NCBI RefSeq assembly: GCF_014304815.1
Contig: NZ_CP047958.1
Coordinates: 248,001 to 312,000, forward strand
Source of the DNA: Synechococcus sp. MIT S9220
GTDB taxonomy: Bacteria; Cyanobacteriota; Cyanobacteriia; PCC-6307; Cyanobiaceae
Direction: 5' to 3'
DNA: 64,000 nt
A program made the position numbers and the translations under genes. Numbering within the stretch: the first letter of the stretch is position 1; every line of letters begins with the position of its first letter. Shown in pieces: positions 21,543 through 27,788 of the stretch. The notes beneath the pieces were generated by a model. It was given only the letters and a program-made list of their open reading frames with translations, was not told the DNA's origin and ran no database searches.

Positions 21543-21666
21543 ATCAGTTCGATGTGGTGGCGACTGAAGCGGCGCCGCTGCCCAAAGCCAGCCTCAGTCT
21601 TGCGTTGGATGACTGCCTCAACTGCGCGATTCCCCCACACTGACGTTGAGCTGTCGGCAGTCAGGC

Positions 21667-22920
21667 ATGGAAGCAAGACGCAGCGATCGACTGCTCTGGG
21701 TCACGAGCCTGTTGTTCGTGGTCTGGCTGGTGTGGGTGGAATCCAGCTTTCAGTATTTCGAGGGTTCCCTGGGATCGGATCTGCGTCTGGATTCGGCAGG
21801 GGTGGCGCTGGTGGCCGGCAGCTTTCTGTTGCCCTATGGCCTGGTGCAAGTGCCCGTTGGTCGCCTGATTGACCGGGGCAAGGTCGAGCTTTGGCTGCTG
21901 CTGGCTGCATTGGCCGCTGCCTGTTGCAGTCTGGTGTTTGCCAGCAGCAACAGCCTGCCGGGGCTGCTGTTGTCGCGCATCGGCACAGGCATGGCCTGTG
22001 CTGTGGCGTTCCCGGCATCGGCGGTGCTCGCACGACGCAGCCTGCCAGCAGATCGCTTCGCTCTGGCGATGGGATTCACCGATGGCCTGTTGGGCGTCGG
22101 CGCCGCATTGGCGGCCGTGGTGCCCCTGCTACTGGGTCGCTCCGGCTGGCGTGATCTGGTGTTGTTTCAGGGGCTCTCAGTGGCCCTGATGGTGGCCCTG
22201 CCAATGCTTCTGCTCGGAGGCCGCCGGCGCGCGCCGGCTCAGTTGCCAACGGCAGAGCAGGACATGCGTGTGCAGCGCTGGACCAGGGCAGGAGTGAATC
22301 GCCTCATTCAGTGCTGCTTGCTCTACGCGTGGGGGCTTGGCTTCGTGTTCGGGATGGCGCAGTACGGCCTGCTCTCAAGCCTGAGGGGCTGGCCCAATTC
22401 ATTGATGGAAGGTCTCACCCTGATCATGTCGATTGGCCTGGTGGTGGGGATGGTGGCCAGCGGGGCTCTCGGCGGACGCCCTCAGCAACGTGGTGGTCTG
22501 CTTCTAGCTGGCACCGTGATCACGCTGCTCTCGTTGTTGCTGCTGATCAAGACCTCGCTGCCGCAGGGGGTTCTGATGCTTCCTGCCTTCAGCTTTGGTG
22601 TTGGCATCGGTACGTCCGTGCTGGCCTTCCCGATCGCGGAAGCGTCTGCACCTCCCGGGCAGACGGCGATGACCGTTTCGATCGTCAACACCTCAGGAAC
22701 AGTGATGGGCGGGCTGATGACGATCGTGTCTGGGTTGATTCTTCAGGCCTCTCCTCAGGGAGACCTGTCGCTGGTGCTGCTGATCTATGGCGCACTTGCC
22801 CTGTTTGGCGTTGCGATGGCCAGCTGGATCAGTTTCAGCTCTGAGCCGGCTGCCGCTGGCGCCATTCCTTCCAGGCCAGACGTGGTGCCGTCCAGAGACT
22901 CAGTAAAACCAGGGGAGTGA
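21667..22920 (+). CDS. MFS transporter
   Basis: A 417-residue membrane protein with about 12 hydrophobic segments. The loop between helices 2 and 3 reads P-V-G-R-L-I-D-R-G-K, the MFS signature (G-R-x-x-D-R). The C-terminal tail is Ala/Pro-rich. The substrate is unknown. The last 86 bases overlap the convergent BCCT transporter gene. Confidence 0.85.
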   Translation: MEARRSDRLLWVTSLLFVVWLVWVESSFQYFEGSLGSDLRLDSAGVALVAGSFLLPYGLVQVPVGRLIDRGKVELWLLLAALAAACCSLVFASSNSLPGLLLSRIGTGMACAVAFPASAVLARRSLPADRFALAMGFTDGLLGVGAALAAVVPLLLGRSGWRDLVLFQGLSVALMVALPMLLLGGRRRAPAQLPTAEQDMRVQRWTRAGVNRLIQCCLLYAWGLGFVFGMAQYGLLSSLRGWPNSLMEGLTLIMSIGLVVGMVASGALGGRPQQRGGLLLAGTVITLLSLLLLIKTSLPQGVLMLPAFSFGVGIGTSVLAFPIAEASAPPGQTAMTVSIVNTSGTVMGGLMTIVSGLILQASPQGDLSLVLLIYGALALFGVAMASWISFSSEPAAAGAIPSRPDVVPSRDSVKPGE

Positions 22921-24496
22921 CCGGCACGGCAGTGATCACAATGAAGGCCTGCAGAGCGTTGATCGAGGTGTTGTCGCCCAGGCTGGTGCCGATACGCAGC
23001 AACACCAGGGTGAGGCTGCCGATCATCAGAGCCCAGAACAACCGCAGCAGCGCTGGTGGTGTGCTCTTGGCACTGACCACCATGGCTGCGGCATAACTCA
23101 TGGAGTCGGCACTGGTGGCCATGAACAGGACCACCAACACAAGGCCGACCGGAATCAGGAGCCAGGACAGGGGAAGCTGGCCGAGAATCGCCAGTAGTGC
23201 TCCCGATTCACCGCTGGCTGTGAGCGGGCCGCTGATGGAGCCGGGGTTGGCGAGTTCCAGTTGCATGCCAGAACCGCCGAGCAATGTGAACCAGATGTTG
23301 GTCACGATCGGGCAGAGGATGGCCACTGCCAGCACCAGTTCGCGCAGAGTGCGGCCGCGGCTCACCCCTGCCGTGAACAGACCCATCAGCGGTGCATAGC
23401 CGAGGAACCAGCCCCAATAGAACACGGTCCAGCCATTCACCCAGTTGCCTGGACTGCTGTTGGGGGCAAGAGCCATGCGCGGCAGGTTGGTGAGATAGAG
23501 CCCGAATGCGCTGATGAAGTGCTGAACCAGCCAAAGCCCTGGGCCCAGCAGCAGCAGAGCTGCGGCAAGACCAAGGGTCAGCCAGACGTTCAGCTCAGAC
23601 AGCCACTTGATGCCTCGCTGGATTCCACTCACGGTGGACGTGGCAAACACTGCAGTGAGCAGCACCACCACCAAAGACTGGAGCCCGGCGCTGTCGGTGA
23701 AAGCAGGCAGCATCCCTGCGGCGTTGCTCAATTGAAGAGAGAGGAACCCCAGTGGTCCCACGGTTCCTGCGATGGCCGCCACCACGTAGAGGCCATCCGC
23801 GAGGTCTCCCAGGGGACCTTCCACCCAGCGGCTGGGAAGAATGCCAACCAGCAGCGTGCGTGGGCGCAAAGGTTCGCCGCGTTGCTCCTGGATCGAGAGT
23901 GTGATCGTCACCGTTGTTGCCACCAGAGCCCAGGCCAGGAATCCCCAGTGCAGGAAGCTCACGGCCAAAGAGGGATCAACTGCAGCTGCGGTCGATCCGT
24001 CAACTCCAACGAAATAGGGCGCGGGATCCCGGAAGTGGAACAGCGGTTCGGCTGCAGACCAGAACACACCTCCGCCGGCCAGCAGCGTGCAAATCAGCAC
24101 AGCACACCAGTCGAAGAACTTCAGGCTTGGTTTGGCTTCAGCTCCTCCCAGGCGCAAGCTCCCGATCGGGCTGATGGCCAGCACGATGGCAATCACAAAC
24201 AGCAGCAGCACCATCCACTGCCAGAGGCCGCCGAGAGCGTTGCTCACAATGGCTTTGCCTGAGCTGGTGAAATGCTGCGCCAGTTTGAGGTCAACGGCTG
24301 CGACCACCAGAAAGACCAGCAGCGGGCCTGCGCCGATCCACAGGGGCTTGCGTTGCCACCACGCGCTGGTTTCAGACGTGCCGTCCTGGAGGGTTGATGG
24401 GTCGGGCAAGGGAGATCTCTGGGCGAGAGGGGCTTTAGGCGCTGACGGCTTCGCGCTGATGACTCCAGCAGGAAAGATCCACAGCAGGAGTTTCAC
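22835..24496 (-). CDS. BCCT family transporter with altered aromatic box
   Basis: A 553-residue sodium- or proton-coupled transporter of the betaine/carnitine/choline family with 12 helices. The signature helix 8 reads W-T-V-F-Y-W-G-W-F-L-G-Y-A-P, followed by S-R-G-R-T-L-R-E-L. Aligned to BetP (W366...W377), the tryptophans at 374 and 377 are Phe and Tyr here, so the betaine box is changed. The start overlaps the flavoenzyme gene by 62 bases; a TTG at 24409 is another possible start. As the last gene of the four-gene operon, it likely carries the product of those enzymes. Confidence 0.9.
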   Translation of the reverse strand: MKLLLWIFPAGVISAKPSAPKAPLAQRSPLPDPSTLQDGTSETSAWWQRKPLWIGAGPLLVFLVVAAVDLKLAQHFTSSGKAIVSNALGGLWQWMVLLLFVIAIVLAISPIGSLRLGGAEAKPSLKFFDWCAVLICTLLAGGGVFWSAAEPLFHFRDPAPYFVGVDGSTAAAVDPSLAVSFLHWGFLAWALVATTVTITLSIQEQRGEPLRPRTLLVGILPSRWVEGPLGDLADGLYVVAAIAGTVGPLGFLSLQLSNAAGMLPAFTDSAGLQSLVVVLLTAVFATSTVSGIQRGIKWLSELNVWLTLGLAAALLLLGPGLWLVQHFISAFGLYLTNLPRMALAPNSSPGNWVNGWTVFYWGWFLGYAPLMGLFTAGVSRGRTLRELVLAVAILCPIVTNIWFTLLGGSGMQLELANPGSISGPLTASGESGALLAILGQLPLSWLLIPVGLVLVVLFMATSADSMSYAAAMVVSAKSTPPALLRLFWALMIGSLTLVLLRIGTSLGDNTSINALQAFIVITAVPVTPLVLLSLWTAPRLAWKEWRQRQPAQS

Positions 24497-25622
24497 CGCT
24501 GGCCAGTTGTGCCAGCGAGTCGCCGATCAGGGGCGCAAATTTGAAGGCTTGGCCTGAGCCGCCGGCAAACAGGCTCAGCTTTGGGCCTAGACGGTCCAGC
24601 ACGAAATTGACGTCGCTGGCCATCGAGTAGGGACTGATCACGGTTTCGACCCGTTCCTGGACGCCTTCGACTTCGTTGAACAGGAATGTATCGAGAAGTT
24701 CGACCAGCCTTGCCGGTGGCTCGGTGGTCATGGCATTGGGTTCTGCGACACGCAGCTCCCTGGGTGCCCAGTCGATTCCCGCCTTGATGCGTGGCCGACC
24801 ATCGCTGGTGTGGCTGAGCACCGGGAAGCCGTAATACAGGCCTCCGTCATCGCCGCGTTCCTTCTGGAAGCAGAACCATTGCGGATAACGATCCGCCAAT
24901 GCAGGGTCCACGGTGTAATGAGCCCAGAGCATCGGCCACACCTCGAGTTTTGGCGCGAGTCCAAGCGGAGCCAGCAACAGCTGGCTCCAGATGCCACAGG
25001 CCACGACCAGCTGTCCTGCGGCGATGTGGTGGCCATCCTCGAGAGTGACGCCACCACCGTCGGCATCCAGGTTCGCCACCGGGCAGTGTTCCACCAGTTG
25101 ATGGCCAGCATGACGGGCCGTGCTGATCCAGTGAGCAACAACCTTGTCGCTGCGCACTGCCCCAGCGGTGGGCTCAAACAGTCCGGTGAAATCGCTTTTC
25201 GGTTTTAGAGGAAAGCGGGTTGAAATCTGATCGGCATTCATTGCCTCATAGGGGATGCCCTGTTCGTCCATCACCCGGCGGGCCCCTGGGATCGACCCTT
25301 CGATCGTTTCCTCATCCCAGCTTTCGCCGTAAAACAGCAACCCATGGGTTTCGCGCAGCTGTTCTCCTGCGTAAATCTCTTCCTCACGCCAGAGCTTGTT
25401 GGCCTCCTGAGCCAGACGACAGAGCACGGGATCGGAATACATCTCCCGGAACATCCGGGTTTCGCCATAACTGCTGGCCTTGGCGTGCGCAAGGGTTTTG
25501 GCCTCGAGCAGCACCACGTCAGTGATGCCTCGACGAGCCAGGGATGCTGCACAGCTGAGACCAGCCATGCCGCCGCCGACAATCACCACCGAGGCCTTGG
25601 AAGGAAGAGCGGCCGAGCTCAT
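24435..25622 (-). CDS. FAD-dependent amine oxidase, sarcosine oxidase/NikD-like
   Basis: A 395-residue flavoprotein of the monomeric sarcosine oxidase family. The dinucleotide motif is V-V-I-V-G-G-G-M-A-G-L-S near residue 12; S-S-Y-G-E-T-R-M-F-R is the conserved active-site arginine segment; A-F-K-F-A-P-L-I-G is the C-terminal FAD loop, closest by eye to NikD (A-F-K-F-V-P-L-F-G). NikD makes picolinate from piperideine-2-carboxylate. The cysteine that binds FAD covalently in this family (C-M-Y-T) appears replaced by Ser (S-P-Y-S), so FAD may be non-covalent. ATG overlaps the dehydrogenase stop by 4 bases. Confidence 0.85.
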   Translation of the reverse strand: MSSAALPSKASVVIVGGGMAGLSCAASLARRGITDVVLLEAKTLAHAKASSYGETRMFREMYSDPVLCRLAQEANKLWREEEIYAGEQLRETHGLLFYGESWDEETIEGSIPGARRVMDEQGIPYEAMNADQISTRFPLKPKSDFTGLFEPTAGAVRSDKVVAHWISTARHAGHQLVEHCPVANLDADGGGVTLEDGHHIAAGQLVVACGIWSQLLLAPLGLAPKLEVWPMLWAHYTVDPALADRYPQWFCFQKERGDDGGLYYGFPVLSHTSDGRPRIKAGIDWAPRELRVAEPNAMTTEPPARLVELLDTFLFNEVEGVQERVETVISPYSMASDVNFVLDRLGPKLSLFAGGSGQAFKFAPLIGDSLAQLASGETPAVDLSCWSHQREAVSA

Positions 25623-26674
25623 GCCACGTCTCCGAAGCTGAGGCCGATCGGATCGGTCTCCCGTTCGGCGGTGACTTCCACAAGAGCTGCTCCAACCGAG
25701 AGGCCCTGATCGCGCTGATTGAGATAGTCAGTGGCTCTTTGGCGCACCTCGCTGCGCACGAAGGCGTAGACATCCTCCGCGCCTGCACCTTTCCAGGCGT
25801 CGGGTGAGAAGCGCTCGATCGAGTCGGCGATCACGGCACCGGCATTGACCAATGGATCCGGCAGCACACGGATGCCGCGCCGACGCAGGTCGTCGGCGAG
25901 CTGAGTGCTCTGGAAGGGAGCATTGGCTGCTGGAACAACAGATTTGACCCTCAGGCCAGAGGCGATCTCAGCATTGATCAGACCTGAGATCGAGCAGGGC
26001 AGCAGCAGATCCAGCTTCAGCTCCCACCAGGGACAGTCCTGATGCAGAGGAGTGGCACCAGGGAAGCCTGCACGTTCTGGACTGAGATCCACGGTGAACA
26101 CTGTCCAGCCATGTTGAACCAACACGCGAGCCACGGTGCCGCCGACGGCGCCACAGCCATGCACCAGCGCGCGGCCGGGTTTCGCTTCAGCCAGGGTCGA
26201 TTCGAGCACGGCTTCAACGGCGCCGAGGGTGCCATGAGCCGTTGCTGCGCTGGCATCCACAGGACTGCCGACGGCTGCCAGCACGTGGGGAGTGAGCTCC
26301 GTCAGGCGCTCCATATCCTCCAGGCTGGTATTGAGATCACAGCCGGTGATCATGGCTCCGTCCAGAGACTCCAGAAGCTCTGCGGTAATGCTGATCAGTT
26401 CGTCCTTCACCGCCTCCGGTTCGGCGGCGCGCGCCACGATCTTGCCGCCGGCGAAACCGGTGCCATAGAGGTCGTGCTTGTGGGTCATCAGCCCGGCAAG
26501 TCTCTGTCCGTCAGCAATGCAGGCCTCATCGCTGGGGTAATTGAGGAGACGCAGGCCACCGTTGGCCGGGCGGCGCGCATCGGTGTTCTCGGCCACCACG
26601 AACACCGACAGATGCTCGGAGACATGTTCAGCTAGCACCGAGACATCCGGCGCGGGTCGTGTTGTGGTTGTCAT
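25619..26674 (-). CDS. Glu/Leu/Phe/Val dehydrogenase family protein
   Basis: A 351-residue NAD(P)-dependent amino acid dehydrogenase. G-L-R-L-L-N-Y and G-F-A-G-G-K-I-V carry the catalytic lysine region, C-D-L-N-T the aspartate, and H-G-C-G-A-V-G-G-T the dinucleotide fold. The family interconverts amino acids and 2-oxo acids; the substrate is not fixed by these motifs. Context (flavoenzyme, N-methyltransferase type, betaine transporter) suggests 2-deamination of lysine or a similar amino acid. ATG 26674 overlaps the methyltransferase stop; the longer frame to 26725 is unlikely. Confidence 0.88.
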   Translation of the reverse strand: MTTTTRPAPDVSVLAEHVSEHLSVFVVAENTDARRPANGGLRLLNYPSDEACIADGQRLAGLMTHKHDLYGTGFAGGKIVARAAEPEAVKDELISITAELLESLDGAMITGCDLNTSLEDMERLTELTPHVLAAVGSPVDASAATAHGTLGAVEAVLESTLAEAKPGRALVHGCGAVGGTVARVLVQHGWTVFTVDLSPERAGFPGATPLHQDCPWWELKLDLLLPCSISGLINAEIASGLRVKSVVPAANAPFQSTQLADDLRRRGIRVLPDPLVNAGAVIADSIERFSPDAWKGAGAEDVYAFVRSEVRQRATDYLNQRDQGLSVGAALVEVTAERETDPIGLSFGDVA

Positions 26675-27711
26675 CAGGCCACTTTCTCCATCATTTGGTG
26701 GTGCTCCACGTAATCCAGGCTCCACTCAGAAGGGGCGTCCGCGATGCGTTGCTTAAGGCGCTTGTACACCTCATCTGCCACGGCATCTCCAGCAGTGCTG
26801 GCAAAGCTGTGTCGGCTCCAGCTGCGGATCGTGGCCATCAGTCCAGCCGCGAACGCTGCCGTATCGCCGTTCTCCTCCCAGCGGCGGCGGTAAGGGCACT
26901 TGACGTACACCGTGCGCTCATCCACCAGACGCAGGCCATTGCGGTAAGGCGCCGAGCTCTGATCTTTCAGCGGCGCCATGAACTCCTCGGGTGACTTGTA
27001 GAAGTTCAGCACCGTTCCCTTGCGGTACTGCTCTTCAGTGATCACGCCTTCGTCAGCAAGGCTCTTCCAGATCTGATGCAGCTGGTCGTGCACGTTGCGG
27101 GTTTCACCGCCGTTGTGGCCGAGGTATCGACCCTCTCCGTCGCGAGACAGGTTCACCGTCAGCAGGCGTCCACCCACTTTCAGCTCTTTGCTGCGCAATT
27201 CCAGAACGTAAGTCCAGTCTTTGAGCGCCTGCGCCGTGAAACGCTTCAGAGCATCGGCATCACCGGATGCCAGCACGTGGGTATGGGTATTCAGCGGTCC
27301 TGGCGACTCGCTCAGCCAGTGCATCGCGGTGGCGGAAAAGCCAAAGCTCACCGTGTTGGGACCCACCGATGGCTCATAGAAGCTGCGGGCGCTTACCAAC
27401 ACGGTGGGCTTGGGAGTGCGCGGAATCTGCAGTGCCAGATTTTCAGCAAGGGCAACGTTGTCGTTGCTGGGCAGATCATTGCCGATCAGGGTGAGGTGGG
27501 CCTGGGGCTGGTTGGCATGCAGGCGATCCAGCACCTGGTGCCACAGACCCACGGCCGTGCCGCCATCGGCAGCTCCGTAATCGATCAGGACATGGCTGTC
27601 AGCGGCAGCAAGTTGGTCAACACAAGTCAGGGCCCAGTCTGAGGCGGCTTCGATGCAAAGCAGAGCGCCTTCAGTCTGTGCGCTGTAACCGGTGGTCATG
27701 GCGATGGCCAT
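26674..27711 (-). CDS. SABATH family S-adenosylmethionine-dependent methyltransferase
   Basis: A 345-residue protein of the SABATH family, best known from plants, where it methylates carboxyls (salicylate, jasmonate) or ring nitrogens (caffeine, trigonelline). Motifs: V-L-I-D-Y-G-A-A-D-G-G for SAM, N-D-L-P-S-N-D-N (plant N-D-L-P-G-N-D-F-N), and S-A-T-A-M-H-W-L-S (plant S-S-Y-S-L-H-W-L-S). It is the first gene of the four-gene minus-strand operon. Met at 27699 is an alternative start. It is probably not a housekeeping methyltransferase. Confidence 0.88.
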   Translation of the reverse strand: MAIAMTTGYSAQTEGALLCIEAASDWALTCVDQLAAADSHVLIDYGAADGGTAVGLWHQVLDRLHANQPQAHLTLIGNDLPSNDNVALAENLALQIPRTPKPTVLVSARSFYEPSVGPNTVSFGFSATAMHWLSESPGPLNTHTHVLASGDADALKRFTAQALKDWTYVLELRSKELKVGGRLLTVNLSRDGEGRYLGHNGGETRNVHDQLHQIWKSLADEGVITEEQYRKGTVLNFYKSPEEFMAPLKDQSSAPYRNGLRLVDERTVYVKCPYRRRWEENGDTAAFAAGLMATIRSWSRHSFASTAGDAVADEVYKRLKQRIADAPSEWSLDYVEHHQMMEKVA

Positions 27712-27788
27712 CGACCTCGTCAGCGACAGATCACACCGTACAGGAACTGTTTGTCAGCACCTCGTCACAATCCGTGCATTGGCGGGTT

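Follow-up and report, generated by a model that had tools for sequence, protein, structure and literature searches.

In nikkomycin biosynthesis, an aminotransferase acting with a sarcosine-oxidase-type enzyme takes lysine through piperideine-2-carboxylate (P2C) to picolinate, a route that is established (PMC4021061). There the lysine 2-aminotransferase NikC, a pyridoxal phosphate (PLP) enzyme, is followed by the P2C oxidase NikD, and the picolinate goes into a peptide antibiotic. Here we describe a four-gene operon of Synechococcus sp. MIT S9220, a marine Synechococcus whose genome is a single contig of 2,424,175 bases, for which a similar route to homarine (N-methylpicolinate) is proposed; the operon lies in a window of 64,000 nucleotides (positions 248,001 to 312,000 of contig NZ_CP047958.1). 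As in the nikkomycin route, P2C derived from lysine would be aromatised to picolinate by a flavoenzyme of the sarcosine oxidase family, but the operon has a dehydrogenase in place of the aminotransferase, and its proposed product is N-methylated. The other three gene products also belong to well described families, namely the ELFV amino acid dehydrogenases (leucine, tryptophan and phenylalanine dehydrogenases), the SABATH methyltransferases (salicylate methyltransferase, caffeine-type N-methyltransferases and a mycobacterial fatty acid O-methyltransferase) and the BCCT transporters (BetP, DddT and CaiT).

The four open reading frames are intact, on the minus strand, and in the transcription order methyltransferase, dehydrogenase, flavoenzyme, transporter:

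26674..27711, minus strand: SABATH-family S-adenosylmethionine (SAM)-dependent methyltransferase, 345 aa (PF03492); putative picolinate N-methyltransferase, last step
25619..26674, minus strand: Glu/Leu/Phe/Val-type amino acid dehydrogenase, 351 aa (PF00208/PF02812); putative L-lysine 2-dehydrogenase giving P2C
24435..25622, minus strand: NikD-like flavoenzyme of the monomeric sarcosine oxidase family, 395 aa (PDB match NikD); putative P2C oxidase giving picolinate
22835..24496, minus strand: BCCT-family betaine-type transporter (PF02028); start at GTG 24496 or later, e.g. TTG 24409

With Pfam scores well over the cut-offs and a conserved order, these genes bear out the operon and the family assignments made in a sequence-only reading of the window. 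In the proposed scheme the dehydrogenase would carry out oxidative deamination of L-lysine at C2, the resulting 2-keto-6-aminocaproate would cyclise to P2C, the flavoenzyme would use O2 to take P2C to picolinate in a four-electron oxidation, the methyltransferase would use SAM to methylate the ring nitrogen of picolinate to give homarine, and the transporter may import or recapture homarine and perhaps other betaines. We consider it likely that the operon directs homarine synthesis from lysine. The NikD-type acidic residues of the flavoenzyme, the ranking of NikD first in structural comparisons, the altered pocket of the dehydrogenase and the presence of the operon in strain WH7803 all favour the lysine–P2C–picolinate–homarine sequence that had been suggested from the DNA.

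The gene order is kept across marine Synechococcus far beyond chance, and the operon is present in nearly all of these genomes. Within the window's genus, 30 of 31 genomes have the methyltransferase gene and the other one is 58% complete; the flavoenzyme gene is present in 28 of 34 genomes of a sister genus, where one complete genome, probably KORDI-52, has no match to the flavoenzyme, dehydrogenase or transporter. Among 339 genomes across the phylum the flavoenzyme is restricted to three genera of this family. By methyltransferase sequence, named near relatives are the single cells AG-673-F03 and AG-679-A04 (97% identity). The operon is found in records named WH7803 and RCC307, with all four genes in WH7803, and for this one strain gene presence agrees with measured homarine, as homarine has been detected in axenic Synechococcus WH8102 and WH7803 (PMC8269262). 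The description of homarine as abundant in marine Synechococcus, which the earlier reading gave as reported, is weaker than first published, because a 2023 correction decreased the values ~25-fold, to 18 mM in WH8102 and about 0.2 mM in WH7803 (PMC10134881). A 2021 companion field study noted that genetic information on homarine synthesis and degradation was lacking (PMC8269247), and a search of openly available papers, without subscription papers and preprints, gave no genes for making homarine. Homarine is an abundant particulate solute of the open ocean and millimolar in Synechococcus. If the assignment is correct, its producers could be mapped in metagenomes and metatranscriptomes, homarine flux would be tied to Synechococcus and some Prochlorococcus, and its role as a compatible solute could be approached by knock-out.

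The flavoenzyme carries a DAO domain (PF01266, 147 bits, well over the cut-off), and its best match in the PDB is NikD (phmmer E 3e-35), followed by a bacterial sarcosine oxidase (3e-32). Structural modelling against NikD had been proposed as a check of the active site; with an AlphaFold model (mean pLDDT 72.7) all four NikD entries rank first (VIA Z 25.0–25.3 versus 23.9 for the next entry), and Foldseek by itself returns NikD and monomeric sarcosine oxidase (MSOX) entries intermixed. The NikD residues Arg53, Glu101, Asp276 and Lys358 correspond to R59, E108, D284 and K361, and MSOX Lys265 to K280. The glutamate E108 sits in a four-residue insertion, IEGSIPG (EGxIxG), and this motif together with that of D284 (GIDW) is present in 117 of 117 near-full-length operon loci; the Asp276 column was placed by HMMER pairs and by a second alignment, which agree. 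Equivalents of the Glu101 insertion and of Asp276 are not present in MSOX, the Thermomicrobium sarcosine oxidase or the alignable SolA-like controls; one SolA-like control has a glutamate near the Glu101 column, but without the insertion and without Asp276. Control reading frames L183 and L185 (wrong-frame) and L186 (unaligned in this region) were left out of the residue comparison. NikD Arg53, Glu101, Asp276 and Trp355, and MSOX His269, Lys265, His345 and Cys315, have active-site roles described in structural papers, and the numbering of MSOX His269 and Lys265 agrees with PDB titles. By its sequence, then, the enzyme is NikD-like in the residues that separate NikD from sarcosine oxidases, and because these NikD-specific acids are present a four-electron oxidation is favoured.

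The same residues bear on a quite different function, handling of N-methyl amino acids or glycine betaine, in which the transporter would import a betaine, the flavoenzyme would act in sarcosine-oxidase-type demethylation, and the methyltransferase and dehydrogenase would be unrelated. MSOX and SolA models are the best NCBIfam matches of the flavoenzyme, albeit below cut-off, and a BCCT transporter would suit such a role. However, MSOX His269 and His345 are replaced by Asp and Gln and Cys315 is also substituted, the dehydrogenase and SABATH methyltransferase have no role in betaine demethylation, and in Prochlorococcus the three enzymes form a unit without the transporter (see below). Sarcosine or betaine degradation was therefore dropped as the principal interpretation on the active-site residues of the flavoenzyme, and we regard it as very improbable.

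The dehydrogenase matches both ELFV domains well over their cut-offs (PF00208, 58 bits; PF02812, 32 bits), and its nearest solved relatives are leucine and tryptophan dehydrogenases, with which it shares, by homology, the two-domain fold. The catalytic Lys68, Lys80 and Asp115 (leucine dehydrogenase numbering) are invariant as K66, K78 and D113, and the cofactor-binding Asp203 is retained. The hydrophobic pocket of leucine dehydrogenase is not: Leu40 is replaced by Asn38 and Val294 by Asp284, and both substitutions are invariant in the Synechococcus and Prochlorococcus clades (71 distinct sequences, with one unread residue). These two positions are the specificity sites that distinguish glutamate from leucine dehydrogenases; in the glutamate dehydrogenases of cyanobacteria used as controls, the second of them is Ser. 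An acid in place of a greasy pocket residue would suit a basic side chain, and judged from these residues a pocket with Asn and Asp fits a substrate such as lysine. Lysine itself is suggested since it is the only common basic amino acid whose 2-keto acid closes to a six-membered ring able to become picolinate. If so, the dehydrogenase would be a second entry into a lysine-to-picolinate route known from antibiotics.

The dehydrogenase falls under every NCBIfam cut-off, and its top match is the tryptophan dehydrogenase ScyB (97 bits versus a cut-off of 600), which raises a route from tryptophan or another amino acid to an indole acid derivative. A model of SolA, an N-methyltryptophan oxidase, matches the flavoenzyme, and indole-3-acetic acid methyltransferase is among the structural matches of the methyltransferase. 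Against this, the pocket positions that are polar and acidic here (Asn38 and Asp284) are Met and Val in tryptophan dehydrogenase, and the residues that characterise oxidases of sarcosine and N-methyltryptophan are missing from the flavoenzyme. An indole product is the least probable of the alternatives we considered.

The methyltransferase scores 81.2 bits against PF03492 (Methyltransf_7; cut-off 29.8). In searches with a predicted structure (pLDDT 66.8) the top 13 matches are all SABATH enzymes (Z 19.6–23.7, with the next at 12.7), so that as modelled it is a SABATH-fold methyltransferase, but it is only 13–19% identical to the solved members in structural alignments. Among these matches, little separates salicylate methyltransferase and the caffeine-type N-methyltransferases from a fatty acid O-methyltransferase, and the nearest solved relative is a fatty acid O-methyltransferase. 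This leaves some room for another pyridine or piperidine acid, such as methyl picolinate, N-methylpipecolate or pipecolate betaine, made by the same early steps from lysine with O-methylation or incomplete oxidation. The SABATH family has many carboxyl O-methyltransferases, and pipecolate oxidases belong to the sarcosine oxidase family. However, homarine itself has been measured in an operon-bearing strain, a volatile ester such as methyl picolinate has no need of a BCCT carrier, and the NikD-specific acids suggest a four-electron oxidation rather than an incomplete one. We consider such a product unlikely, if the most credible of the alternatives.

There are several departures that weigh against the assignment of homarine synthesis to this operon. 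In the flavoenzyme, NikD Trp355, which stacks on the flavin, is Gln358 in all of the operon enzymes, and the cysteine that binds flavin covalently (NikD Cys321, MSOX Cys315) is Ser330, or Asn in one distinct Synechococcus sequence; the FAD is thus probably non-covalent. Because Trp355 and the covalent cysteine are replaced while E108 and D284 match, we describe the enzyme as NikD-like but do not class it as NikD. By sequence the Prochlorococcus flavoenzyme is slightly better matched to sarcosine oxidase than to NikD. N- and O-methylating SABATH structures tie for the methyltransferase (about Z 21–24), and the BCCT transporter can serve glycine betaine too. WH7803 has far less homarine than WH8102 despite its operon, which of these two strains was read in WH7803 alone, and presence or absence of the operon gives no explanation for the difference. 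Finally, we infer all of the enzymatic activities, the nitrogen as the methylated position and the transporter cargo from sequence. This last point is common to a further explanation, that homarine in Synechococcus arises differently, for instance by decarboxylation of quinolinate or by condensation of glycine with succinate, and that the operon product is unrelated. Routes proposed for animals (a shrimp study, reference 48 of PMC8269262) do begin elsewhere, but the operon holds every enzyme class of the lysine route, with NikD-type and lysine-compatible residues, in a homarine-producing strain, and we find a separate route improbable.

Homarine synthesis by the three enzymes is also compatible with how the genes are arranged in Prochlorococcus. 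Within one Prochlorococcus genus, 16 of the 266 genomes encode the flavoenzyme, and the carriers inspected, which include MIT 9201, MIT 9401 and HNLC1 and are high-light II (HLII) and high-nutrient, low-chlorophyll (HNLC) genomes, have a tight three-gene enzyme cassette without the transporter, at another genomic site and 51–57% identical (55–57% for the methyltransferase). A BCCT gene is present in six of the 266, four of them with the cassette (Fisher's exact p 1e-4, uncorrected for kinship, and three of the four seem to be close relatives). Both Prochlorococcus BCCT loci examined (G305 and G426; 61–62% identical to the window transporter) are unlinked to the cassette. Because the cassette lacks the transporter, and the transporter is unlinked yet enriched, the functional core consists of the three enzymes, with the BCCT gene associated but separable. 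One Prochlorococcus BCCT gene (in L190) is near urease genes by eye. On the broadest reading, no genes for homarine biosynthesis would have been identified before these, the route would be dehydrogenase-initiated and proceed without a covalent flavin, and the transporter-free cassette would make a minority of high-light (MIT 9201, MIT 9401) and HNLC Prochlorococcus homarine makers too; for this broader claim the balance is only modestly favourable. In terms of novelty, the pathway would be a variation on the NikC/NikD route and not categorically new chemistry.

The transporter scores 422 bits against PF02028 (cut-off 27) and is encoded by the single BCCT gene in the window's genome. It is about equally similar to several solved members (E about 1e-36 to 1e-50) and does not reach the cut-off of the NCBIfam equivalog models for carriers of glycine betaine (NF047988, 292 versus 650 bits), carnitine and choline. 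At the positions of BetP Trp374 and Trp377 it has Phe and Tyr. We infer from its association with the three enzymes that the cargo may be homarine.

The junctions between the genes are compact, and a conserved segment precedes the first of them:

26672..26676, minus strand: TGATG junction, in which the methyltransferase stop (26676–26674) and the dehydrogenase ATG (26674–26672) share 1 base
25619..25622, minus strand: ATGA junction, a 4-base overlap of the dehydrogenase stop and the flavoenzyme start
27712..27788, minus strand: 77-base leader upstream of the methyltransferase, with the block CTGTACGGTG ... CGCTGACGAGGT-ATG, from a comparison of upstream regions

The spacing of −1 between methyltransferase and dehydrogenase is seen in 47 Synechococcus and 12 Prochlorococcus loci, and that of −4 between dehydrogenase and flavoenzyme in 55 Synechococcus loci. 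Of the 4-base overlaps originally described among the first three genes, only that between dehydrogenase and flavoenzyme is of this length, the other being 1 base. The 62-base overlap described between the flavoenzyme and transporter genes applies only if the latter starts at GTG 24496; a start at TTG 24409 instead gives a 25-base gap after the flavoenzyme stop (24437–24435). Because similarity between strains sets in mostly at residues 22–40, the GTG is no more likely to be the start than a later codon such as TTG 24409. The leader block CTGTACGGTG ... CGCTGACGAGGT is kept in most marine Synechococcus while the flanks vary, and the segment 27712–27788 is a probable promoter or leader of the operon; the Prochlorococcus cassettes carry another conserved block, unlike that of Synechococcus. 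The Synechococcus operon is flanked mostly by HAM1/phosphoglucomutase genes and carotenoid dioxygenase/MFS genes. In the window, the BCCT gene on the minus strand converges on an MFS gene (plus strand, 21646–22920), and the two share their last 86 bases (22835–22920); the overlap is ~20 bases in L043.

There are several instances of interrupted genes. As assembled, frameshifts divide the methyltransferase gene between two overlapping frames in genomes G281 (probably CC9902) and G030, and likewise the flavoenzyme gene in G162; either the alleles are broken in nature or the sequences contain errors. Genomes G020 (probably CC9311), G016 and G238 have, at another site, a further SABATH-like gene that is only distantly related (22–28% identity). 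A conserved-peptide scan of IMG/VR gave no relative of the methyltransferase or the flavoenzyme, and a viral origin was set aside on this result. Plasmid searches for a non-cyanobacterial copy of the module returned distant relatives only, and the scan of genome contigs for operons used strict N-terminal methyltransferase peptides, which distant operons elsewhere could escape. One of the plasmids, from Rhizobium sp. CB3171, encodes a SABATH methyltransferase (30% identical to that of the window) next to an oxidase, but was rejected as a copy of the module because the adjoining oxidase is D-amino-acid-dehydrogenase-like and not NikD-like. The cluster (L174, 7226–12339) also includes a B12/radical SAM protein and a membrane protein with several spans that by eye resembles EamA, lies between transposon genes, and from its gene content looks like an undescribed biosynthetic cluster.

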